From the NCBI GenBank assembly GCA_030447745.1, contig JAUJOH010000001.1, forward strand, positions 25,558-89,557: a DNA stretch of 64,000 nucleotides, in the 5' to 3' direction. The notes under the pieces are model-generated. The model was not told the origin of the DNA, did not search any database, and saw only the letters and a list, made by a program, of their open reading frames with translations. The DNA is from Chloroflexota bacterium. Its GTDB lineage: Bacteria; Chloroflexota; Limnocylindria; Limnocylindrales; CSP1-4. Position numbers and translations under genes: made by a program. Positions 44,026 through 60,640 of this stretch are shown piece by piece (positions within the stretch are counted from its first letter, which is position 1; every line of letters starts with the position of its first letter).

Positions 44026-45027
44026 GTGCTCGCGCCGCGGTCTGAACCCGTGCTGCCGCCGCTGCTCGTCATCGCCGGGCCCACCGCGACCGGCAAGACC
44101 GGCCTCTCCGTCCGCATCGCCGAGGCTCTGCGGGACGAGGGCGTGCCGGCGGAGATCGTGTCGGCCGATTCCCGGCAGGTCTGTCGCGGCCTCGACATCG
44201 GGACGGCCAAGGTGTCCGCGGCGGAGCGCGCCTGGGTGCCCCATCACGGCCTCGACCTGGCAGAACCGGACGAGGCGTACTCCGTCGCGGACTTCGTGGT
44301 CCATGCGCGGTCGTGCTCCACGAGGTCGCCGCGAGCGGCGGGCTCGCGATCCTGGCCGGCGGTACCGGGTTCTACCTTCGGGCCGTCGCCGGGGGCTCGA
44401 CACCGCGGCCCTGCCCCACGACTCGGGCGTCCGAGAGCGGATCGAGCGCGAGCTGGAGCAGGGCGGGCTCGGGGCGGCGGCCGGGCGACTTGCGATCGTC
44501 GCCCCGCAGCGCGCCGCGCGAACGGACCTGCGCAACCCACGCCGGGTCGCACGCGCGCTCGAGCTCGCGAGCTCGCGGGCGACGGCCACCGTCGCGCCCG
44601 CGGGTACGACGCGCCGGTTGCCTGGCTGGGGCTCGACCTCGACCCGCGCCACGCACCGGGAGTGGGTCGCGCATCGCGCTTGCGCGCAGTTCGACGCCGG
44701 CCTCGTGGAGGAGGCGCGGGCGCTTCGTGAGCCGGTTCGACCTCGCTGCCGGCGGCGTTCAGCGCGATCGGCTACCGCGAGGCGGGACGTCATCGACGGC
44801 CGCCGGACGCTCGAGCAGGCGATCGAGGACGACGCCGCTCGGAACGTCGCGTTCGCGAAGCAGTAGCGGACGTGGTTCCGCGCCGAACCCGACATCGCCT
44901 GGCTCGACGCCGGGTCGGACACGCTCGCCGAGGCGGAAGGAGCGGCGCGCCGCCTGCTCGACGCGGCGAGGTCGCCGCGCCGCCGGCGCACGCGCCGGAG
45001 CTGCGCGGCAAGCGGCCGGGCGGCTGA
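44026..45027 (+). CDS. miaA: tRNA dimethylallyltransferase (frameshifted, apparent internal TAG at ~44865)
   Basis: VIAGPTATGKTGLSVRIAEAL..., ADSRQVCRGLDIGTAKV..., ILAGGTGFYLRAV. Confidence 0.85.
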
Positions 45028-45054
45028 GCAACGTCGAGCGGGTATCCTCTGGCG

Positions 45055-46430
45055 ATGCCGCGTCACTCATTCATCGAGCTCGAGCCACCCGCCGAGAAAG
45101 CATTCCTCGTCGCCTGCGACACCGGCGCGGACGCCGGCTGGTCCGCGGAGGACTCGCTCGGCGAGGCTGGCCAGCTTGGCCACGACCGCCGGAGCGGAGG
45201 TGGTCGGCGCGGAATGGCAGAACCGCCGGCACGTCGACCCGACCTGGTATGTCGGCAAGGGCAAGGCAAGGAGGAGCTGCTGGCGGCAAAGAACGAGACC
45301 GGCTTCGAGGTCCTCGTCGCGGACGACGAGCTGTCACCCGGCCAGCAGCGCGCTGGAGGAGCTGCTCAAGGTCAAGGTGATCGACCGGAGCCGCCTGATC
45401 CTCGACATCTTCGCGCAGCATGCCCAGACCCACGAGGGTCGCCTGCAGGTCGAGCTGGCGCAGCTCGAGTACCAGCTGCCCCGCCTGACCCGGCTGTGGA
45501 CCCACCTGTCGCGCACGGGCAGCGGAATCGGCACCCGGGGTCCCGGCGAGACGCAGCTGGAGACCGACCGGCGGGTCATCCGCGACCAGATCAAGAAGAT
45601 GAAGGAGCGGGTCGAGCAGGTCCGACAGCAGCGCGCACGGCCGCGCGCGGCCGCGACCGGCGGCTGATGGCCACCGTCGGCATCGTCGGCTACACGAACG
45701 CCGGCAAGTCGACCCTCCTCAACGCGCTCGTCGGCTCCGAGGTCGCGCGGGCCGAGGACAAGCTGTTCGCCACGCTCGACCCGACCTCGCGCCCAGGTCC
45801 GGCTCGGCGACGGCCAGACGGCGATCGTCACCGACACGGTCGGCTTCATCCACAAGCTGCCGCACCAGCTGGTCGACGCTTTCCGGGCGACGCTCGAGGA
45901 GGTCAATCGGGCCGACGTCCTGCTCGAGGTCGTCGACGCCGCGGACCCGCACTTCGAGGAGCACCGGGCGACCGTCCAGACGGTCCTCGACGAGCTCGGG
46001 GCGGGCGACAAGCCGCGCCTCGTCGCCTTCAACAAGGCGGATCTGCTCGAGCCCGCCCGGGATGCCGATGCGCTGGGCCCGGCGATCTCCGGGGCGGTCT
46101 TCGTCTCCGGCCTGACGGGCTACGGCATGGACACGCTGCGGGCGGAGATCGCGGTGCTGCTCGCGTCGCTCTGGGAGGACGTCGACGTGGCCCTCGTACG
46201 CCGCGGGCGAGCTGCTGGCGCGGGTTCGCGAGCGCGGCACGATCGAGCTCGAGTACCGCGAACGCGACGTCCACGTCCGGGGTCGGATCACGCCGTCGCT
46301 GGCCGGTGAGCTGCGGGCCGTCGGCGGCCGCTGGGCGGAGTCGCTCCACGGCGCCGGCGGGGCGGAGAGGACCGATGCGGCGACCGAAGCCGACGCGACG
46401 GGCGCCGACAACGATGCGACCGTGCTGCTT
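45055..46430 (+). CDS. hflX: GTPase HflX (frameshifted)
   Basis: [37 protein letters not shown]..., [37 protein letters not shown]. Confidence 0.9.
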
Positions 46431-47857: not shown

Positions 47858-48062
47858 TGCGCCATGATGTCGTCGTAGCCAATGACGGATGCGGTCCGAC
47901 AGGTGGCGCACAACAGAGCGCGCAGGTCCCGCGCGACGTGTCGGGGATCCTGCTCAGGCCTGGGACGTGTTTCGTCTGGGCGTGCCGACATCACCGAGCC
48001 AGGCACGCGTTCGCCCGGTGAGCGCAATGCTGTAGTAGTACGCAACAACAGGAGGAACGCTC

Positions 48063-48270
48063 GTGCTCACCGTGGCGCAGGCGGCCCGGCGTGCCGGCCG
48101 CAATCCGGAACGATCCGCCGCTGGATCCGCGAGGGCAAGCTGCCGGCGCGCAGGTCGGGACGCAGCACGTGCTCGACCGATGCCGGACGTCGGGGCAATC
48201 CGCCGTTCGCGGGCCGCTCACTGATCGATGGGCGTGGTCGTTGACGCGAGCGTCATCGTTCATCAGCGGT
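48063..48270 (+). pseudogene. Excisionase-like HTH antitoxin and truncated PIN (VapC) remnant
   Basis: VLTVAQAARRAGRNPE.IRRWIREGKLPAR (AGGAGG RBS), frameshift, then MGVVVDASVIVHQRC*. Confidence 0.6.
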
Positions 48271-48469
48271 GCTGATCTGGGCCCGCTCGCACGTGTCTCG
48301 CTCTGCGAGGGCCTCTATGCGTCCCGCTGTGGACGATGGACGCGCGGCTCCGGCGCGCTGCTCGCCTCGTCGCGGTGCCGTTGCCCTCGGATCTCTGATC
48401 AGGGTCTCTCTACTTCCGATAAGGTGAGTTATGTCTGTAGCTCGTCGAAGTCGGGCAAGCCCACCATCG

Positions 48470-50609
48470 TTACGGCGATTCGGTTACCGGCCAACGAGCG
48501 CAATTCGGCGAGTCGGTGATCCGGCCAAGTATCCAGGGATCGAACACGACCCTGTCCGCCGCGAGGTCGACCGCGAGTTGGAGCGTCGACCGAGCCAGCT
48601 CATCCGTGAGGCCGGCGACGATGTCTTCACCTCGGCCACCACAACTTCGTCCTTTGATATCGCGAGCACATCTATTTCGCGGGCTTCGCCACCATGGACT
48701 TGTTGGAGGTCGACTCCCGGAAACGACCACTTTGCTCCGAGGGCCACGGTAATCCAGTCTTGCACCGGAAGGTGGCCCAAACAATCTTGGTCCAAGGTGC
48801 GGTCGACGAGACTATTGAGGCCGTACGTCAACTCCGGCTCGCCGGACGGGCCGACAAGGGTCGATGTTGCAGCGCATCCCTGGCACCTAACCCGATCCGA
48901 TGCACGCCCAAGCGGCACATGGCTGGTCAACCCACAGTTACCGCACGAGAATCGAAACGCTCGGAGACGAGTCGTTCGCCACAAGTCGGGTTAGCGAGTC
49001 GACAACGGTTCCGCGTCGGACCTGGCCGGGCAGCTTGGATGGTGTCGCCGGCCGTAAGCCACCGCGGTGTCAGTGCTGGCACGGTCGCTGTGACCGCGTG
49101 CCCTATCGTGTCATCCGTTACGGTTTCGGGGAGGGTCGCCCGGGAGGACTTGTGCTGCCTTCCGGCTCGTCAAGCTCGCTAGGGCGCGAAGGATGTCGAG
49201 AACAACGGGCTCGCGGAGGATGGGGATTCCGTCCTTCCTTGGATGGCCGCAAGAAGCGCGTTTGCATACCGGCCCTTGTCGGACGGGCGCCAGGCCCACC
49301 CCGCGTCTAGGAGGAGTGCATCCGCGACTTGCCGCGGCGCAGGAACGGATTTCGTAGCGCCTCGACGGGGCATAGATCCAACTGAGCGCGATGGCATCCA
49401 TTCGGCGTGCGGGCCGCCAATAAGATGCGCACTAGCGGGACGGCGGGGCCATTCGGTCGCCGCGAGCTGGTCGATATCCACGCGGATGTGGCCACCTATC
49501 CTCGATTGAACTCGATGGGCGACTCTACGTGCACCGTAGTCGTTGGGCGGGTTACGGTGACTGGAACTGAGGCGCGACGACCTTCTCGGCGCTCGCCGAG
49601 GACGTGCGCTCGCGGATCCCCTTTGGTCGAGTAGGTGAGCGGGTGCTCTCCGACGTCTCGAGCGCGGGTGCTCCAGATCCTCTTGGAAGTCCGTCGACCG
49701 ACCTCAACCTTGAAACCCAGGGAAATCGCGATATCCCGAAGCTTCACGTCGTCAGAGCCGAGAAGTTGAAGGTCGGGAACGCTAAGCCACTTGGTTAGAC
49801 ACAGTTCGCGCAGACGGGCGGCGACCTCAGCGTCGCGCAATGCCGGAAGGCAGCCAGAGCACATGGAGATCGTGGGCGCCTGCGCTCAGTGCCCGCATGT
49901 TCCAGAACCACACTACCTGCGCGACGTCGGGCGGGGCTCGGTGAAGACGAGGACGGGTCCGCCATAGACGGAGCGCTATATAGACCGAACCCCTGCCGTG
50001 TGATCCAAACTGGAGAAGGCACATCAAGTTGCCGCCAGCAACTCCGGCCAGCCGGCCCTCTGTCGAGCTTTCGCGCCTGACGCCATCCAATAACCGAGGT
50101 GCTCCGGATCATCGGGCAGGACTCGAGGGCTGCCACTTCTCCGGTAGTGCCCGCGCGTGCGGCACCAGAAGGAGACGTCCCGCTAGAGTTCCAGGAGGGA
50201 CTGCCACCGTCGCATGGACTCCGGGCTCATTTCCCGGCGCCAAGATGGAGTGCGGGTGCAGGCGGGAGCCGACTCTGTGCTCGATCTGTTCCTCTAGCCC
50301 GCGGCCGACGACTGCATAGTCGATCAACACCTCGGGCCGCAGTTGTTCCAAGATCTGCCACCACGCGGCCCCGACGTGATCGCGGCGGTCGACGGGGATG
50401 ATGACCTGCCCGACGCCCGCCCACTCCGTGCAGGCGTAGGCGATGGCCTTGCGGACGTGCGTGGCATTTCCCGCTCGGACTAGATAACCAAGCTTTCGCG
50501 GTCGGAGAGTTGCTTGCGCTACGTCGGTGCCGACAAATTCCACCTGCGGTCGCGATCGCCCCGCCCCGTCCGTCACCCCGTCAGGACCGTCGCCGGATGC
50601 CGTTATCAT
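48470..50609 (-). pseudogene. Large uncharacterised protein, interrupted by several indels: N-terminal conserved domain, middle VWFWNMRAL segment, C-terminal zinc ribbon and PD-(D/E)XK-like nuclease
   Basis: VEFVGTDVAQATLRPRKLGYLVRAGNATHVRKAIAYACTEWAGVGQVIIPVDR...; GGPVLVFTEPRP.DVAQVVWFWNMRALSAGAHDLHVLWLP; CGNC...CQGC; EIDVLAISKDEVVVAEVKTS. Confidence 0.55.
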
Positions 50610-50629
50610 TTGGCGGGATCGCGGAGCTC

Positions 50630-50780
50630 GGGACCCGTGAGGCACAGCCGCGGACACGCCTGACCGAACTGCTGGAGCACCATCGCGACACGCCCGCTCT
50701 CGACCCTCGAGCGCCGAAGAAGGCGTTGCCCACCTTGTTGCGTCGCATCGCCGATGAACTGGCGCGTGGAGTCCTGGTAG
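50630..50780 (-). pseudogene. VapC (PIN) remnant
   Basis: VAMVLQQFGQACPRLCLTGPEL resembles VAVVLEALGQVCPRLSLTPAEL of the intact vapC at 51246-51680. Confidence 0.55.
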
Positions 50781-50929
50781 ACGTGCAGCGCTGCCCTCGC
50801 CCGCGGCGGAGCAATCCGGCCCCCGCGGACGCTGACATTGCCGACGCGCGGCTGGCGCCGGGCATCGGGCTGCCTCGGGGGATCTTGAACCCAACCGATC
50901 GCGACATCCTCCACGGAACGGGAGGCCGT

Positions 50930-51195
50930 CGAGCACAACGCCCTTCCGCCTGGGTGACAGCAGCTCGATGCCGATCACGGTGCCGTCGGCCGCGTAGTTG
51001 ATGCCGCGGGCATCGTCCAGGCGCTCATGCCGCGCCCACGGCTCGTCACTCACGGTCAGGGTACGCAGCGTCCACCGACTCGTCGTACTCGAGGAGCAGG
51101 TGCGTCACGGCTTCTCGCCCTTCCGCCACACGGTCACCACCCGACCGTCCGTCGTGTCGAGGCTCACGCCTCGGCTTCCCGTACAGCGTGGCGGC
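50930..51195 (-). CDS. DUF4258 C-terminal fragment followed by DUF2283-family protein (frameshifted)
   Basis: LDTTDGRVVTVWRKGEKP*; VTHLLLEYDESVDAAY|LTVSDEPWARHERLDDARGINYAADGTVIGIELL. Confidence 0.6.
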
Positions 51196-51245: not shown

Positions 51246-51680
51246 TCACCCGTCGAGCGTCGCTACCAGCTCGCTCGGACGTTGGCCGAGTCCGCTTCGG
51301 AGCAGACCGCGGTCCATCGTGGCGAGTCTGGCCCCGCGACTGACCGCCGCAGCGGCGTACGCAGCGTCGTAGAGGGTGAGCCTGTATTGCTCCGCAAGGC
51401 TCGCGGCCTCACCGAGCTCGGCCGGTGTCAGCGACAGACGCGGGCAGACCTGACCGAGCGCCTCGAGCACCACCGCGACACGCTCGGCACCCGCCCTCGA
51501 GGTGCCTCGCAGAAGGGCATACCCGATCTCGTATGCCGTCAGGTCGAGCACTGAGAGCGCGATGGTCCGCCGGCGGTAGCGCTCGACCAGCTCGCGCGCC
51601 GCCTCGACCTCCTCCTCGCCGTCGGCGTGGAACCACTTGAGAGCGACGCTGGCGTCGCTAACGATGCCGATCGAGGGCAT
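51246..51680 (-). CDS. VapC-type PIN-domain toxin
   Basis: MPSIGIVSDASVALKWF...EYRLTLYDAAYAAAAVSRGARLATMDRGL-like layout. Confidence 0.88.
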   Translation of the reverse strand: MPSIGIVSDASVALKWFHADGEEEVEAARELVERYRRRTIALSVLDLTAYEIGYALLRGTSRAGAERVAVVLEALGQVCPRLSLTPAELGEAASLAEQYRLTLYDAAYAAAAVSRGARLATMDRGLLRSGLGQRPSELVATLDG

Positions 51681-51910
51681 CACGCGCCTGCCGGTCACGC
51701 CGGACGAGATCCGCCGACTCGAAGGGTCCGTTGATCCCAGCGCCTCTCGCCTCTCGCGAGCGCGCGCGTCGATGGCCGCGGCCGATGGCCAGCTCAGCTC
51801 GCGCTGGGCGGCCTCCTGGAGGAACCGGCTGCGATTGGTCCCGCGCGCGGTCGCCTCGGCGTCGATCGCGAGAGCAGCTCTTCGGGCAACGAGATCAATA
51901 CCTTCGCCAT
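51661..51910 (-). CDS. RHH antitoxin (VapB-type), frameshifted
   Basis: MAKVLISLPEELLSR|IDAEATARGTNRSRFLQEAAQRELSW. Confidence 0.75.
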
Positions 51911-52039
51911 GCCGTAGAGTATATCCATGCGATATCCGCGCTCGTCCAAGGTCGCAGCTTTCTGTCCGAAGGTATGCAGCCTCGCCGGCGAATTGACGCT
52001 CGCGCGGATGGCTCGTTCGACTCGTTGCACCGGCAGTGG

Positions 52040-52560
52040 CTCCTCGACGGTTCTCGAGCCGCTGCGCGGACTCGCTCGAGGATCTCGATGTGGCCGGTGT
52101 CCTTTGGTCTCCCGCCGACCGCTTCATGGCGATGAGGTCCTCGACAGCGGCCACCTGGTATGTCTCCTGCCCGTGGATCGTGCGGCTCCGTGCGCGGAGT
52201 TTCTCGTGGTCGAGGCCACCCGGTCTGAAAGTAGGTCGAGCCGTCCCAGACGCGTCATCAGCGTCCAGGTGCTTCCCTGCGCGAGGGCGCGAGCATCAAG
52301 GGTGATCCTGACGCCGGCCGGCACATCCACAGGCTCGGCGTGGAGCTCGGCCACGGCCGCGGCGATCGCGGCTTCGGGCGTACGATGTCGACGTCGACAG
52401 TCGCCCACATCGCGCCCTGGACGCCTGCTGCGATGCCACCGATCACCACGAACTCGACATGATGCTGATTGAGAACCGAATGATCCCCAGTGGATCGAAC
52501 GCCGCGGCTGGCCGTTCGGTCACCGAGCGTCGCGCGCGTCGTCGAACATCCGGAGCATGT
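52040..52560 (-). CDS. AbiEii/DUF6036-like nucleotidyltransferase (frameshifted)
   Basis: LNQHHVEFVVIGGIAAGVQGAMWATVDVDIV...; C-term VEDLIAMKRSAG. Confidence 0.65.
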
Positions 52561-52649: not shown

Positions 52650-55324
52650 CCTGACCCGCCGTCCGAGAACAAGCGCCGCTCGGTCGGTCGACCGAGAACA
52701 CCTTCATGACCTCGTCGCCGTAGTGGTTGATCACCTTGACGGCGACCTTGGCCGTCGAGGGGCGCGGGAACGGGCGCGAGACCGTTGAGTTGACCGTCGC
52801 CCACGCTTCGTCGGAGATGTCGGCACGCAGCGCGCGGCGGAGCTTGTCGTAGGGATCGTCTGCACCCGTGAAGTAGGCGTGGCGGACGAAGAAGGCGTCG
52901 CCGTCGTAGTTTGTGTCGAGGAACCAGGCGGCGATGTCGTCGACTGACGATGCGCGCAGCGCGCGCCGGTCGTCGGGTCGTACACGTCGAGGCCCTTCAC
53001 CTCGACCTCGATCTCGCCGTCGCCTGCCGGTCGGACGTCGATGTCGGGCTCGCCGAAGACCATGAACAGGTTGCCAGTGCCGGTCTTCTTGAGCAGCTCA
53101 TCGCCCATCGCGAGGTCCGGGTTCATGCGCGCCTGGAGGATCGTCAGGCGGCCGAGGGTCGAGGCCTCCTCCCCTGCCAACGGGTCGAACGCGAAGCCGC
53201 ACACGACCAGTAGGTCGGCGAACTTGACGGCCTCCTTGGCGGCGTCGCGGATGAGCTCGGGTCCGACCGTGCCGAACTCGGGACCGATCGCGATCGCCAC
53301 CGACCTCGTCGTGCCGTTCTCGCCGTACTCCCCGACCCCCTGGACGTAGACGCCGGGGTACGGGTCGAGTCGGCTGAGCTCGAGGCGCTCGTTGCGCTTG
53401 GTGTTCTGGACGCCGGCGCGTCGGAGGTTGTCGAGGATGCTGGTGACGAACTGGCCGGCATCGACCGACGGCGCGGTTGGGTCGGCGGCGGTGTCCTCCG
53501 GGCCGTCGGCCATGACCGATGGGGTGACAGGCTCTCGACGGTGAACGGGCCCGACACGCGGACGATCTTGGGGTCCTGGTAGGGGCGATCGAACAGGGTC
53601 TCGCTCTCGGCGTGGCGGGCGATCGCGGCGTCGATCTCCTCGCGACTCATGTCCTCGCGGATGTCCGGGTTCTGGGCGATCGACTTGAGGGTCACGTGCG
53701 GCACGCGCTCGTAGACGAAGCCGCGGCGGACGTCGGCCGATGTCGGCGGCATGGCGCTCGGCGGCGCCTGGCCGGTCAGCTGGGCCTCTTCCGGATGCCG
53801 GCCTCGGAGTCGGCGAGGAGGTAGTACGGGTACTGGGCGGCCATCAGGCGCGAGCGCGAGGGCGAGCGCGACGCGGCTCGTGTCGACCGTGATCCAGCGT
53901 CGGCCCCACTGCTCGGCGACATATGCGGTCGTACCGGAGCCGCAGGTCGGGTCGAGGACGAGGTCCCCGGGATCGGTCGTCATCAGGAGGCAGCGTTCGA
54001 CGGCTGTTGTCGCTGTCTGAACGACGTACACCTTTGGGTCGGCGCGACTCCGATACGCCGATGTCCATCCACGTGTTCGTCAGTGGGTACGCCGGAAAAT
54101 CATCGAGGTATCGAACGTACGCCAGCGTGTTCCCGGTAACGCGAACCCTTCCAGCCACCGGAGGGCCGCCATCCCGGCTTCGTTGGTCTTCCATCGACTC
54201 CGATGTTCGGTCGGTACTCCCGGCATCCCTCGATCAACACCGGAAACCACGACGCCGGCGTGCGCCTTTCTCGCGACCCATGCTCTGGCTCATGAGATCT
54301 GCGCAGTCGAAAGACGCGTCCTGCCGGCAGCGGGGTCGCGCCCGACCGTTCGGCTAGCGTGATCGGTCGCGTGTCACCCGACGGAAGCTCGACTTGGTCG
54401 TACTTGGACCCGCCTTGGCCGCCGACGCCCTTCGTCACGTGGATGGAACGGTACTTCGTCGCCGCTCGTTCTTTGCCGTACCAGAGGAGCCAGTCGGCGT
54501 CCCCGGAAGGAGGTCCGCAGTAGCTCCGGTGGTCTTGGAGTAGGTAACCCGACTTGAGACGAACCCATCGAACCCAAAACCTCGTCGAGCACCGACCGCA
54601 CGAGATGGACGTTCTCGTCACCGATCTGGACGAAGACCGAACCAGCATCGGTCAACAGCTTACGTATGACGACCAGTCGGTCTCGCAGATAGGCCAGGTA
54701 GGAGTGGACGCCGAGTCTCCATGTGTCTCGGTACGCGCGAATCTGCTCCGGTTGGCGCGTGAGGTCGGAGTCTCGGCCATCCGTGATGTCGCGTTTGCGC
54801 GTACTTACCTGCCAGTTACTTCCTGAATTTGATGCCGTACGGAGGATCGACATAGATCGTTTGGACCTGGCCCTTGAGGCCTTCCTTCTCGGCCAGGCTG
54901 GTCATCACCAACAGCGAGTCGCCGAGGATCATCCGGTTCGCCCACTTGCCGGGGTGGCGGTAGAAGTCGACCTTCTCCTCGAACGTCAGCTCGCTGTACG
55001 GCCCGAAGAAGCCGAGCTGCTGCTCTGACCGGCGGCCCTCGCTCTCCGCGCGGAGCTCCTCGACCAGCGCCAGCGGATCGATCGTCTCCTGGATGTAGAT
55101 CGGGACCGCCGGCACCTCGAGGTCGTGGCTGTGTCCTGCTCGTCCTTGCCCTTCCAGACGAGCTGCGGGTCGAGGGTCGGGTCCCGGGGATAGCGCACGA
55201 TGGCCGGCCTCTTCTCCTCCGGGCGGGCGAACGACTCCAGCTCGGCGGTGGGGATGTTCGAGCGGCGGTCAGACGGGTGAGTCGTCGCCCGGACGATCGT
55301 GCTCGGCTTGATCTTGTCAGCCAC
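52650..55324 (-). pseudogene. mod: Type III restriction-modification DNA methyltransferase (Mod), multiple frameshifts
   Basis: LVWKGKDEQD..., [77 protein letters not shown]. Confidence 0.85.
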
Positions 55325-55329
55325 CGCTC

Positions 55330-55638
55330 ACCTCGGGCTTCCGCGCATCAAGCACGTCCGACGTGGGAGCTCGGGACGAGCGACCGTCCTGGAGCGTCAC
55401 GATCGTGACCTCGTTGAGCGAACCGTCGTATCGGTAGACGATGAGCATCCAGCGCCAGGGCCCGAGGATGAAGGAAACCTTCCCACCGGCCATGGAGCGC
55501 CGGTCCGAGCAGCGGGAAGCGGCGAAGAGGCTCCAGTGATCGGCGGACCCGCGCCCGCGTGCCGCGCGGCAGACTGTGCGTCCGAACGAGACCGGTCAGA
55601 TCGTCGGCCGCGCGGCGGGTGACGACGACCGTGGGCAA
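55330..55638 (-). CDS. RelE/ParE-type toxin (frameshifted)
   Basis: LPTVVVTRRAADDLTGLVRTHSLPRGTRARVRRSLEPLRRFPLLGPALHGRWEGF..., then MLIVYRYDGSLNEVTIVTLQDGRS in another frame. Confidence 0.65.
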
Positions 55639-55901
55639 CCGTCGAGGTCCTCCAGCGGGATGATGCGCCCGGCCTTCGCGTCGGCCAGACCTTCTTGCGC
55701 GCGCTCCCAGGCACCGTCGATGCCGTCGAGCAGGGCTGTCACATCCCTCGGATCGGGGTCCGCCTCGTCGAGCGCCGACGAGAGGAGCGAGCGGGCCAGC
55801 GTGCCCGCGGTCACGTGCGTCCGCTCCGCGAGGCGGTGGAGCTTCTCGGCGTACGGGCCATCGAGGATCACATTCACCCTCGTCGGCGTCGACCGTTCCA
55901 C
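55596..55901 (-). CDS. Antitoxin partner (RHH-like)
   Basis: MERSTPTRVNVILDGPYAEKLHRLAERTHVTAGTLARSLLSSAL...LEDLDG. Confidence 0.6.
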   Translation of the reverse strand: MERSTPTRVNVILDGPYAEKLHRLAERTHVTAGTLARSLLSSALDEADPDPRDVTALLDGIDGAWERAQEGLADAKAGRIIPLEDLDGCPRSSSPAARPTI

Positions 55902-55989
55902 GGCGCTAGCCTAACACTGCCCGACACGATTCGTGCATCGATCAGCGCATCCCAGTACGGGAACCGCATCGCGAGTCGAGCGGTCCGTG

Positions 55990-56460
55990 GGTCTGGCTGG
56001 CTGGCTGGTCATGTGCCAGTCTCCTCGACCGGGTCCGCCGGAGGTGTTCGGAACGGGTCCTCGACGCGCACGGAGCCGTAGGTCCTCCGTGCGCCAGGTC
56101 CTCGCTCAACAACGTCCGACACCCGGCCGTTCGCGCAGCACTGAGGACCAGGGCGTCCCAGTATGAGACGTGCCACTGCTGTGTCCCGTCGATCGCTTCG
56201 TCCACGAGCCGGGTATCGATGGGCACGACGGGCAACTGCCCTCATCCATTCGACCATCGCCCGGCCGTCCGGCGGGGCCACGACATCCTCAGCTTTCCGG
56301 TCACGGTCGCGTAGAACTCACCCAGCACCTGGGCCGATATGACGTAGTCCTTGTCCGGGCTGGCCGCGGGGACCTCGAGGGCGCGTGCTCGCTTTGTTGG
56401 CTCGGCCACATCGACCGCGTAGACCCAGACGTTCGTGTCGATGAACGCGCGACCGTTCAC
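55990..56460 (-). CDS. VapC-type PIN toxin (frameshifted)
   Basis: NGRAFIDTNVWVYAVD..., YVISAQVLGEFYATVTGKL, IDGTQQWHVSYWDALVLSAARTAGCRTLLSEDL. Confidence 0.8.
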
Positions 56461-56711
56461 TTCGCGCGCAAGTACCTGGGTCGGTCGTACAGATCCTCGC
56501 GTCGCCACGTTCGGCCTTCAGGCCCGCTGCTCGCCGTGGACTTCGATGCCAGCTCGACGAAGCCGGCGAGGGCGGACTGCGTCTGGCTGGGTCCGGCGTA
56601 CCGCTGCAAGTAGTCACTGACCACGGCGTTCACCGAGGTGCCGTTCTCCAGCGCTCGTATCCTGGCCCGCCGCAGGACTTGCTCGTCGACCGTTACCGTC
56701 AAGTTCGCCAT
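56457..56711 (-). CDS. VapB-type antitoxin
   Basis: MANLTVTVDEQVLRRARIRALENGTSVNAVVSDYLQRYAG. Confidence 0.8.
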   Translation of the reverse strand: MANLTVTVDEQVLRRARIRALENGTSVNAVVSDYLQRYAGPSQTQSALAGFVELASKSTASSGPEGRTWRREDLYDRPRYLRAK

Positions 56712-56719
56712 CGGAGTCC

Positions 56720-56753
56720 CTCGTGTAGCACGAGGTTGGTGTAGCACGAGGTT
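56720..56753. promoter_or_regulatory. Candidate TA operator: CTCGTG-TAG-CACGAG palindrome, partly repeated in tandem
   Basis: GTGTAGCACGAGGTTgGTGTAGCACGAGGTT immediately upstream of vapB. Confidence 0.55.
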
Positions 56754-57209
56754 AGCGCGCTTTCGTGCCGCCACGGCAGCAGCGTCGCGACGACAGTCCG
56801 GAGGCGTGGAACCGGAGCCAGGGCCCGCCGCGGGCTGAGCGCCGCTGCTCGTGGATGCGACCGACTGGATCGCTCGCCGGCGCCGAGGATCGGGCCGCTG
56901 CTCGTGGATACGACGGACACGACCGCCGACCAAACGACCGAACACTCGGCACGCTCACGCGGAGGGTCCACGACGCCGCTCATACCTCCAAGCGTTCGCG
57001 CGCCGCGCCGCGATACGGCTCCGCGCAGCGCCGATGGCGGCCGCGGTCCGGGCCGAGGTCGGTTCGGCGAACGAGTCGCTCGCATCTGCGGTTGGCACCG
57101 CGCGATGACCGGCAGGTGAGCGCCGGAGCCTGACGCCAAACCTGTCCAGCAGGGTCGCTGCGGCCGACACGTACTCCCTGATCGCGTCCTCCGTCCCCCG
57201 CATCCCGCC

Positions 57210-57470
57210 TCACGCCTGTTCAAGCTCGGCCAATCGCTCGCCGGCGCCGAACCGGCCGCCCTCGGCGACGCGACGGGGAACGACACGGCGAGTCGCAGGC
57301 TTCCGGCCGCTGGCATAGAACTCGAACGTCGGTACCGGAATGCGGACGATCCGCTTGGACACACGGATGGCCGGCAGCTCGCCTCCTCGACCAGGCGCCA
57401 GACGGTGTCGTGACTGACGCCGAGTTGTTGCGCCGCCTCCTTGATGCTGTACCAGCACTCGGCCTTGTCT
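57210..57470 (-). CDS. Excisionase-like HTH protein (frameshifted)
   Basis: WYSIKEAAQQLGVSHDTVWRLVEE|ELPAIRVSKRIVRIPVPTFEFYASGRK. Confidence 0.6.
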   Translation of the reverse strand, partial: RQGRVLVQHQGGGATTRRQSRHRLAPGRGGELPAIRVSKRIVRIPVPTFEFYASGRKPATRRVVPRRVAEGGRFGAGERLAELEQA

Positions 57471-57499
57471 CTCCGTTGCGATCGGTGCGTCTCAGGTGG

Positions 57500-57600
57500 A
57501 CCGTAACGCGCTCGACTCAGATGTCCAGCACCGTGGTTTGGCGTCGTCCTCGTCCACGAGCGCGAACAGTGCCGATGTGTCGACGAATGCCGTCACTCGC
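57500..57600 (-). pseudogene. Truncated PIN-domain (VapC) N-terminus
   Basis: VTAFVDTSALFALVDEDDAKPRC..., overlaps res 3' end. Confidence 0.6.
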
Positions 57601-60600
57601 CAAAGGCCTCGGCGAGGTAGGCATCGTGGTTTTCACTTACGTCCGGCTGGCCGGAGTGGAAGCCGCCCACCGAGGGTTGTGAAGGCAGTACGTACTTCGC
57701 CCGGATCAGGCCGCCGGCGTCCCACGGGTCGGTCACCTCGAGGAACGCCCAGCGGCCGAGGCCGCCCCAGTTGTTGACCGCGACCGTCCACAGGTGCTCC
57801 GCGGTGGCGACCTTGACCTGCTTCTCCTTCTTCGCCTCGCCGGTGACCTCGAGGACGAGCGTCAGCAGGTCGTCACCCGTCGAGGCGGCATCGCGGAGGC
57901 GGATCAGGAAGTCCGGCACGTAGTTGCCGGCGCGGCCCTCGTAGGTGTACGGGATCTTGAAGTTGAGACCCTGGTTCTTGGCGTAGCTGACGACCTCCGG
58001 CATGTCCTCGAGCACCTGGGCCAGCTTCGATTCCCAGCCTGAGTCCTCCGGCACGAGGTTGAGGTGGCTCTTGGCAGTCTCGTAGCACGTCTTCGTCGTC
58101 TCGAACCAGACGTCGTCCGTGGAGCCGATCGGCTCGTACGGCCGAAGGTTCGGAATGAGCCGCTTCTCGCCGCGGGTGCCGGCCACGATCGCCCGGTGGA
58201 TCCGGTCCGCCGCCGCGTGGCTGTACTGGGCGAACAGCAGCATCTGCTCGAAGGTTCCGTCCTTCTTGTACGGCGTGACGCACTCGTCGATCCAGCGCCT
58301 CGTGATGCGGACGAGCTGCGGGAAGAGCCACGGCCGCCCGGCGCCGTCCTCGTCCTGGAAGTGGTTGTCCAGCGTCCGCTTGGCGACCGCGAACACGACG
58401 GTCTGGATGCGGTGATCCCGGAGGTCGATCTCGTGCCGCTCCATCTGGCCGACGATCGGGTCGACCTGCGTCTTGATCGCGACATCCTGCGTCGAGAGCT
58501 GCAGGATCGACGAGGCGTCGAAGGTCGCCTCGAGGTGCTCGGTCGGCATCTCGTAGCGGTAGCCGACGAGGCGCGGGAACTCGATCCGGAGGTGCGAGCG
58601 CTCCGGCAGGGCGCGGACCTGGCGGACCGGCTTGGCGACCTTGACCCTCCCCTTGCCGGAGACGCTGAGGAAGCTGAAGGGCACGCCGTAGACCTCCGCG
58701 TACTCCGGCTCGAACAGCCCGTCGGCATTGGCGTCGTAGCTCGCCCGCCGGAGCGCCCGCCCGACCACCTGCTCGCACAGCAGCTGCGTCCCGAACGCCC
58801 GGATACCGAGGATGTGGGTGACGGTGTTGGCGTCCCAGCCCTCGGTCAGCATCGCGACCGAGACGACGCACCGGATGTGCTCCCCCAGCCTCCCCCGCTT
58901 CCCGACCGTGTTCATGACCTCGCGCAGGATGTCCTCGTCCGTGATGTCCTCGGCCGACCGGCCGGGGAAGCGGGTGACGTACTCGCGCTTGAACTGGTCG
59001 ATCTCCGCTGCGGCCGCCTTGCGGAAGGCGGGGTCGAGGGCGTCGCCGCGGTCGAGCTGCGCCGAGTCGACGAGGAGTGTGTTCGGGCGGTCCCGGAAGC
59101 GACCGTCCTCCTCGTTGCTGAACAGCGGGAGGTTGCCGGGCACGACGACCTGGTCGCCGTTCCCCAGCTCCTTCTGCCAGCCGGCGATCCAGTCGGACAC
59201 GAGCTTGGACGTCGCGGTGTTCGAGCAGACGACGATGAACACCGGTGGCGTGCCCATCCCGGCCGCGTCCCACTCGACGTGGCTGCGCTCGTAGTCGGCG
59301 TACAGGCTGCGGAGCGCGCCCTCGAGCTCCTTCGGGATCACCGGCAGCCCGTCGATCGGCGTGTCGCGCAACCCCTTCCGCGGGAGCGCGCTGCGCACGC
59401 GGAGCCAGAGGTCGCGGTACATCGGGCCCTTCCCCGTCATGGAGTCGTCGCTGACCGGCACCCGCGGGATCTTGACGATGCCCGACTCGATCGCGTCCAT
59501 CAGCCCGAAGTCGCTGACGACCCACGGAAACAGCGTGCCCTCGGCGTAGCCGGAGCCCTTGAGGAAGAACGGGGTGGCCGACAGGTCGTAGACCGCCCGG
59601 ACGCCGAGCTTGTCGCGGACTGCCTGGACGCCGGACAGCCAGACGCGCGCCTCCTCGAGGTCCTTCTTCGCCTGCGTCCGCTCGTCCGCGTCGAGCGCGC
59701 CCTCCTCGGCGACCTCCTTCGGCGCCGGCGCGTAACAGTGGTGCGCCTCGTCGTTGAGCACCACGATGTTCTTCGCGTTGCCGAAGACGCGGCAGACCCG
59801 GCGGACCATCTCGGCCGGCGTCTCGCGGAATCGGTCGTCGTCCTCGAAGCCGGCGAGGACCTTCTTGGTCAGGCTCGCCGCCTGGATCTTCTCGCGCCGC
59901 AGGAAGGCGTGAAAGTTCGTGATCAGGACGGTCGCGGCCTGGAGACGGTCGAGCTGCTCCGGCGTGACGATATCGAGCGCGCGGTAGTAGCTGTCCGGGT
60001 CGTTGGGGATCAGGACCCGCAGGCGGTCGCGGATCGTGATGCCGGGCGTGACGACGAGGAACTTGTCGCTGAACCGCTTGTCCTGGGCGTTGGCCGCCTT
60101 GTTGAGCGCCTGCCAGGCGATCAGCATCGCCATGAGCACGGTCTTGCCGGAGCCCGTCGCCATCTTGAAGGCGAACCGCGGCAGGCCGCCGTTGTGCTGC
60201 TGGTTCTCCTGGCGGATGACGTTGAGCGCCTTCGTGTCGCCGAGCCGCTCCGCCGCCTCGGTCAGGTAGATCGCCGTCTCGGCCGCCTCGAGCTGGCAGA
60301 AGAAGAGCCGCCGCTCGCGGTCCTCGTCGCGCCAGTGCGCGAGCAGGTCGCGGGTGACGCTCGTCGTGTGGGGGTAGTCCTGGAGACGCCACCGCTCGAC
60401 GGACTGGCGGATCTCGTTGACGATCTCGTTCGGCTGCTGGCGCGTCGGGCCGCCGAAGGCGTCCATCGTCAGCTGGGCTGAGGCCTTCTTCGGCCACGCA
60501 ACCGGGACGAAGAACTCGCTGGGTCGACGGCGTGGGGCGATCTCGCCGGTGACCTGCCCGTCGGTCGTCGTGACGAAGTGCTGGCGGGGCTCGACGAACG

Positions 60601-60640
60601 GCGAGTTGATCACGATCGGGTTCTCGATGACTGGCGCCAC
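57593..60640 (-). CDS. res: Type III restriction endonuclease subunit Res (DEAD/DEAH helicase), intact 1015 aa
   Basis: FAFKMATGSGKTVLMAMLIAWQAL (Walker A), VVLNDEAHHCY (DEAH), C-terminal IPYTYEGRAGNYVPDFLIRLRD nuclease region. Confidence 0.92.
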   Translation of the reverse strand: MAPVIENPIVINSPFVEPRQHFVTTTDGQVTGEIAPRRRPSEFFVPVAWPKKASAQLTMDAFGGPTRQQPNEIVNEIRQSVERWRLQDYPHTTSVTRDLLAHWRDEDRERRLFFCQLEAAETAIYLTEAAERLGDTKALNVIRQENQQHNGGLPRFAFKMATGSGKTVLMAMLIAWQALNKAANAQDKRFSDKFLVVTPGITIRDRLRVLIPNDPDSYYRALDIVTPEQLDRLQAATVLITNFHAFLRREKIQAASLTKKVLAGFEDDDRFRETPAEMVRRVCRVFGNAKNIVVLNDEAHHCYAPAPKEVAEEGALDADERTQAKKDLEEARVWLSGVQAVRDKLGVRAVYDLSATPFFLKGSGYAEGTLFPWVVSDFGLMDAIESGIVKIPRVPVSDDSMTGKGPMYRDLWLRVRSALPRKGLRDTPIDGLPVIPKELEGALRSLYADYERSHVEWDAAGMGTPPVFIVVCSNTATSKLVSDWIAGWQKELGNGDQVVVPGNLPLFSNEEDGRFRDRPNTLLVDSAQLDRGDALDPAFRKAAAAEIDQFKREYVTRFPGRSAEDITDEDILREVMNTVGKRGRLGEHIRCVVSVAMLTEGWDANTVTHILGIRAFGTQLLCEQVVGRALRRASYDANADGLFEPEYAEVYGVPFSFLSVSGKGRVKVAKPVRQVRALPERSHLRIEFPRLVGYRYEMPTEHLEATFDASSILQLSTQDVAIKTQVDPIVGQMERHEIDLRDHRIQTVVFAVAKRTLDNHFQDEDGAGRPWLFPQLVRITRRWIDECVTPYKKDGTFEQMLLFAQYSHAAADRIHRAIVAGTRGEKRLIPNLRPYEPIGSTDDVWFETTKTCYETAKSHLNLVPEDSGWESKLAQVLEDMPEVVSYAKNQGLNFKIPYTYEGRAGNYVPDFLIRLRDAASTGDDLLTLVLEVTGEAKKEKQVKVATAEHLWTVAVNNWGGLGRWAFLEVTDPWDAGGLIRAKYVLPSQPSVGGFHSGQPDVSENHDAYLAEAFGE

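Follow-up and report, generated by a model that had tools for sequence, protein, structure and literature searches.

Does a run of minus-strand reading-frame fragments in the 64,000-nucleotide stretch of Chloroflexota DNA analyzed here (the window) represent a single interrupted gene, and if so, what might its product do? A preliminary description had joined these fragments into one protein with a zinc ribbon and a nuclease-like C terminus. By three-frame translation of the window, all of the fragments that it quoted were recovered on the minus strand where it had placed them: VEFVGTDVAQ...AVVG at 50543-50304, DVAQVVWFWN...WLP at 49928-49848, VHVESPIEFNRG within 49540-49499, CGNC at 48945-48934, CQGC at 48885-48874, EIDVLA at 48678-48661, EVKTS at 48633-48619, and GLTDELARSTLQ... 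within 48628-48536. Based on this translation, the coordinates of the pieces, and a colinear match to a family profile (see below), the whole gene occupies 48429..50543 on the minus strand, which is ~705 codons with at least 9 frame switches. The GTG at 50543 is the likely start, and the first residues that follow it align with the N terminus of the family; the ATG at 50609 is an alternative possible start. The gene ends with the TAA at 48431-48429, beyond position 48470, where the preliminary description had stopped, and the C-terminal tail AELRSLAGNRIAVTMVGLPDFDELQT (48509-48432, minus strand) extends past that point.

Five parts can be distinguished along the minus strand. The N-terminal part (50304..50543; LRPRKLGYLV...EWAGVGQVIIP...LRPEVLIDY) corresponds to family profile positions 15 to 85 and to a unit that has a Rossmann-like appearance when a homologue is modeled with AlphaFold2. 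The middle part (49700..50119; VLVFTEPRPDVAQVVWFWNMRAL...VLWLP...LQLLGSDD), which is spread over several frames, is the counterpart of a second Rossmann-like unit and aligns with the family columns VVGDTAEDFALA...WLP...TSxS. It is followed by a linker with beta and helical segments (49144..49540; VHVESPIEFNRG...WRPSDKGRYANALLAAIQG...LREPVVLDILRAL), which was placed by alignment with the family (profile domain 2) and with a protein encoded on an Embleya plasmid. The zinc ribbon (48874..48945), formed by the CxxC pairs CGNC and CQGC, has weak matches to Pfam zinc-ribbon families, and its 4 cysteines are kept both by the window protein and by 29 to 30 of the 30 homologues. The predicted C-terminal PD-(D/E)XK nuclease domain (48429..48855) contains E-x-D at 48678-48670 and E-x-K at 48633-48625, with its last third in two other frames. 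The E, D, E, and K of the E-x-D...E-x-K motif are conserved in 29 of 30 homologues, and the window has EID and EVK.

In order to search with the whole protein, we strung the pieces together with X at the breaks and gaps; this joined window protein served solely as a search query. It matches the Embleya plasmid protein, in order, over residues 1 to 255 (E value of 4.8e-10, the block that includes the middle part) and residues 480 to 619 (E value of 4.5e-12). A profile of 30 homologues also matches it (E value of 6.6e-14), in the order N-terminal unit, middle stretch, C-terminal domain. These colinear matches indicate that the joining of the fragments is not due to chance, and we conclude that the minus-strand fragments are one gene encoding one protein. 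The length of 650 to 750 amino acids and the order of N-terminal domain, zinc ribbon, and nuclease that had been predicted for the intact protein both hold for the window gene, and full-length homologues have the same order. In the homologues, the N-terminal unit, zinc ribbon, and nuclease are colinear within one open reading frame, whereas in the window the frame is broken.

The most likely explanation for the frameshifts is sequencing or assembly error. Neighboring housekeeping genes share the breaks, which the preliminary description had not noticed. In a same-genus relative the hflX frame is open, and by comparison the nearby hflX gene of the window (45054-46351) is interrupted by 7 frame-breaking indels within 1.3 kb; the gene of interest is broken at a similar density (at least 9 times within 2.1 kb). 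The miaA gene (44056-44469) has 2 frame-breaking indels in 0.4 kb relative to the same-genus relative, and the assembly of the window is rich in indels around these two genes. Errors are unevenly spread, however, given that the Res gene of the type III system (57596-60640) has an unbroken frame of 1015 amino acids. That the window copy is instead a decayed pseudogene seems to us quite improbable. Such a reading would fit the crowding of frame switches within 2.1 kb, the neighboring PIN-like reading frame that resembles a fragment, and the existence of broken homologue copies (three loci and a second K. indigofera plasmid). However, hflX and miaA are equally broken nearby while the hflX frame of the relative is open, and every catalytic and zinc residue is retained in the window copy, whose frame is probably unbroken in the cell itself. 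Among the homologous loci, split, frameshifted, or truncated copies are found in finished or draft genomes (L004, L032, L034, L036, and L008, which is K. indigofera plasmid unnamed1), as if the family gene is often lost.

The C-terminal window piece alone matched the Embleya plasmid protein, which itself had to be read across one frame change, and a Kitasatospora protein. When genome contigs were searched with a query built from three plasmid homologues, 30 homologous loci were found in Actinomycetota genomes, mostly as single open reading frames of 780 to 900 amino acids; a scan of genome contigs with the single Embleya sequence did not find relatives. The full-length 30-member profile consists of 27 genome-contig members and the 3 plasmid copies. 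In a six-frame search of the whole genome that contains the window, the sole match to the 27-member profile is this locus (E value of 4.6e-6), and in the 18 genomes checked there is at most one full copy of the family per genome. Within its own phylum, the genome of the window is the only one of 399 to match either the C-terminal piece or the family profile, which makes it probable that the gene was acquired horizontally. In a tree of the C-terminal domain, the window copy pairs with the Embleya copy (support of 0.988), apart from the others. Phage records gave no match to the K. indigofera homologue. The family is sporadic, mostly actinobacterial, and unnamed.

No characterized system had been recognized with this order of domains, and the curated libraries bear this out. 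The window piece matches NERD weakly (Pfam E value of 0.0052, below the curated NERD cutoff) and one homologue has a weak profile match to UPF0102/YraN; apart from these and the weak zinc-ribbon matches, no Pfam, NCBIfam, or PADLOC family was found for the protein. Among PADLOC 2.0.0 models, a single member matches (DpdF, E value of 0.0047) and the best value for a window piece is 0.022, which does not place the protein in a system. The 27 members have no match to DUF1887 (Can2) in Pfam at an E value of 0.01, and neither a CARF domain nor a known modification-reading domain was detected in members with Pfam. A sequence search of the PDB gave no significant match, and we did not find the Rossmann/zinc ribbon/nuclease architecture described in the open-access literature.

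Structure prediction was carried out on a Microbacterium homologue, L020, whose AlphaFold2 model has a pLDDT of 84.4 and a pTM of 0.85. With domain names assigned from the order of secondary-structure elements, the model contains a Rossmann-like unit 1 (residues ~12 to 100), a less ordered part, a Rossmann-like unit 2 (residues ~263 to 404, followed by strands), a helical/winged-helix-like part (residues ~526 to 607), a zinc ribbon (residues 611 to 650), and a PD-(D/E)XK nuclease (residues 660 to 798). The domain order in the model is therefore unit 1, linker, unit 2, helical/winged-helix-like part, zinc ribbon, and nuclease; the presence of two Rossmann-like units in the N-terminal half had not been noted in the preliminary description. 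In a fold search with the full-length model, the best solved match is VC1899 (1xmx; E value of 1.1e-6). Can2 (8bao; E value of 2.5e-4), several Can2-cA4 structures, Cdn1 at rank 11, and EcoT38I are also among the matches, and restriction endonucleases are among the matches in the viral library at E values of 0.003 to 0.02. The global TM-scores are low (0.17 for VC1899 and 0.31 for Can2), as expected for a multidomain chain whose domains are arranged differently, and the match to VC1899 and Can2 may therefore rest chiefly on the nuclease. The nuclease fold is present in the model of the homologue and is assigned by homology to the window domain, the last third of which lies in other frames. Based on the conserved motif, the predicted fold, and the fold search, the C-terminal domain appears to be a PD-(D/E)XK nuclease, as had been proposed, and metal-dependent cutting is predicted. 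None of the three outcomes that would have spoken against the original reading (fragments from unrelated families, homologues that always occur as separate genes, or a C-terminal part that lacks a nuclease fold) was observed.

The genes around the family bear on its function. The window copy adjoins a PIN-domain gene and a type III restriction-modification (R-M) system. The R-M genes (52734-60640, minus strand) comprise the intact Res and a Mod that is spread over several frames. Just before the gene of interest, at 50606-50938 on the minus strand, lies a fragment that resembles the C-terminal half of the PIN-domain protein (51249-52154, minus strand) and is either a duplicate or a remnant. 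On the plus strand, 48030-48390 holds an HTH antitoxin-like fragment (TIRRWIREGKLPARR) and, after it, a truncated PIN-like end (WTMDARLRRAARLVAVPLP). The two may be what is left of a VapBC pair; they were recognized by eye and have no Pfam hit. Around the homologues, 69 PADLOC models were matched among 85 neighboring proteins, compared with 6 among 74 proteins from control regions of the same genomes, a rough enrichment rather than a statistic, given that multiple model hits to a single protein and housekeeping-like models (kinase, RecD, TPR) both raise the counts. The named neighbors include Avs2, PD-T4-6, Dsr1 (at L031), and a MADS gene (mad6). These defense-rich surroundings partly support the proposal that the protein is a defense effector; they are not fixed, however, and neighbors vary between loci. 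No gene family regularly accompanies the homologue among 34 loci, which suggests that the protein works alone or with a distant partner. A codirectional upstream gene of ~400 amino acids, present at several loci, was considered as a partner and rejected, as its copies are unrelated (transposases, a dehydrogenase-like protein, and an ATPase, named by eye). At three loci (L005, L017, and L018), on Streptomycetaceae linear plasmids or short contigs, homologues lie beside transposase or TniB-like ATPase genes.

Nuclease activity, a role in defense, and gating by a signal are all inferred for the family protein, and we lean slightly toward the view, by analogy, that it is a self-contained, stand-alone defense nuclease that is signal gated in the manner of the Can1/Can2/VC1899-type sensor-nucleases. 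The Rossmann-like half would sense a signal of invasion, and until that signal arrives, the N-terminal half would hold the nuclease off. Once released, the nuclease may cut DNA (or RNA) nonspecifically, with the zinc ribbon and the winged-helix-like part perhaps positioning the nucleic acid. Points that weigh against this view are the low global TM-scores for VC1899 and Can2, the lack of a significant fold match for a truncated N-terminal half (see below), the loss of the unit 2 motif GDxxxDFALA in the branch that includes the window, the roughness of the PADLOC enrichment, and the variation in neighbors from locus to locus. A stronger form of this proposal is doubtful: that the protein is an entire immune system in a single chain, a CRISPR-independent cousin of Can1/Can2. 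Its two-Rossmann sensor would have no link to CRISPR or CBASS and would respond to an infection signal by unleashing a zinc-ribbon PD-(D/E)XK nuclease.

One alternative, which we consider unlikely, is that the protein truly belongs to the CARF effectors, with two CARF units per chain as in Can1, and is activated by a cyclic oligonucleotide that the cell produces elsewhere. This would account for the solved structures that rank best against the full-length model (VC1899, several Can2 structures, and Cdn1 at rank 11), and Can1 itself combines two CARF domains with a C-terminal PD-D/ExK domain in a chain of 636 amino acids (PMC6981274). The ~540 aligned columns would, we infer, fit an alignment that begins at unit 2 and runs through the nuclease. 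A serine or threonine that follows strand 1 and a basic residue that follows strand 4 are features of CARF domains (PMC4012209). The family alignment has two conserved motifs in unit 2, GDTxxDFALA behind the first strand and TSxS behind a later one. Inspection of that alignment by eye revealed no conserved basic residue, so that the signature after strand 4 is not evident, and the branch that includes the window lacks the GDTxxDFALA motif. Also against this alternative, Pfam gives no CARF match, and a Cas10 palm domain was found in 0 of 19 genomes (that of the window and 18 with homologues) in a search whose control worked, while a CD-NTase was found in only 3 of the same 19; for the genome of the window, which is 77% complete, the absence of Cas10 is weak evidence. 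A separate model of residues 1 to 366 (pLDDT of 76.6) has no significant fold match and matches no CARF domain, but this construct cuts off the later strands of unit 2 and is therefore an unfair test of that unit. On balance we do not file the protein as CARF, although it may work like Can1/Can2.

It is also improbable that the N-terminal units recognize DNA or a DNA modification directly, which would make the protein a restriction-like enzyme (type IV or standalone) that needs no second messenger. A zinc ribbon, a winged-helix-like part, and a PD-(D/E)XK domain in one chain would suit such an enzyme, and next to one homologue are genes for an HsdM methylase and a GHKL ATPase, which also occur together in R-M operons of the MORC type (PMC2292703). 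However, this neighborhood is not conserved, and the Pfam search of members detected no known modification-reading domain. The locus in question, on an S. longwoodensis plasmid (L006:676-14302), carries the HsdM-type methylase, the GHKL ATPase, the homologue, and then an 1800-amino-acid AAA protein that it shares only with L015; a MORC-type operon was rejected as the general context of the family. A mobile-element maintenance or repair nuclease, serving transposition or linear-plasmid ends rather than defense, is very unlikely: some copies lie near linear-plasmid ends or beside transposition genes (a Mu-type transposase and ATPase in K. indigofera, a related transposase piece at L017, and an ATPase gene upstream at L018), but most loci, including the window, lack such conserved genes, and the defense genes in its neighborhoods have no relation to transposition.

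A set of frameshifted fragments has led to a protein family that has no Pfam, NCBIfam, or PADLOC entry and has testable active-site residues, and cultured actinobacteria hold intact copies, so the family can be tested now. Should the Rossmann-like half prove to sense a ligand, Can1/Can2-type sensor-nucleases would be shown to act outside CRISPR and CBASS, a question that the orphan VC1899 had left open.

Of the known systems, the MORC/paraMORC R-M operons resemble the family at the one locus with the HsdM methylase and GHKL ATPase; this context is not seen at other loci or beside the window gene. NERD and UPF0102/YraN share the E-x-D...E-x-K core and the weak profile matches, but these matches cover only the core motif, and the architecture is not shared. 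Can1 of Thermus, like the family, has two Rossmann-type units and ends in a PD-D/ExK nuclease, all in a single chain (PMC6981274). It differs in having a nuclease-like domain between its CARF domains, no reported zinc ribbon, and an adjoining type III CRISPR system, whereas the family described here has a different middle part and no detectable Cas10. Compared with VC1899 and Can2 (Card1) of DUF1887, it has no sequence-level match, no evident CARF signature, and no Cas10 detected in its genomes; it is about twice as long, with two Rossmann-like units and a zinc ribbon ahead of the nuclease. VC1899 and Can2 are nevertheless its top fold matches and likewise carry a Rossmann-like domain ahead of a PD-(D/E)XK domain on the same chain, and VC1899, like this family, has no tie to type III CRISPR (PMC7969007).
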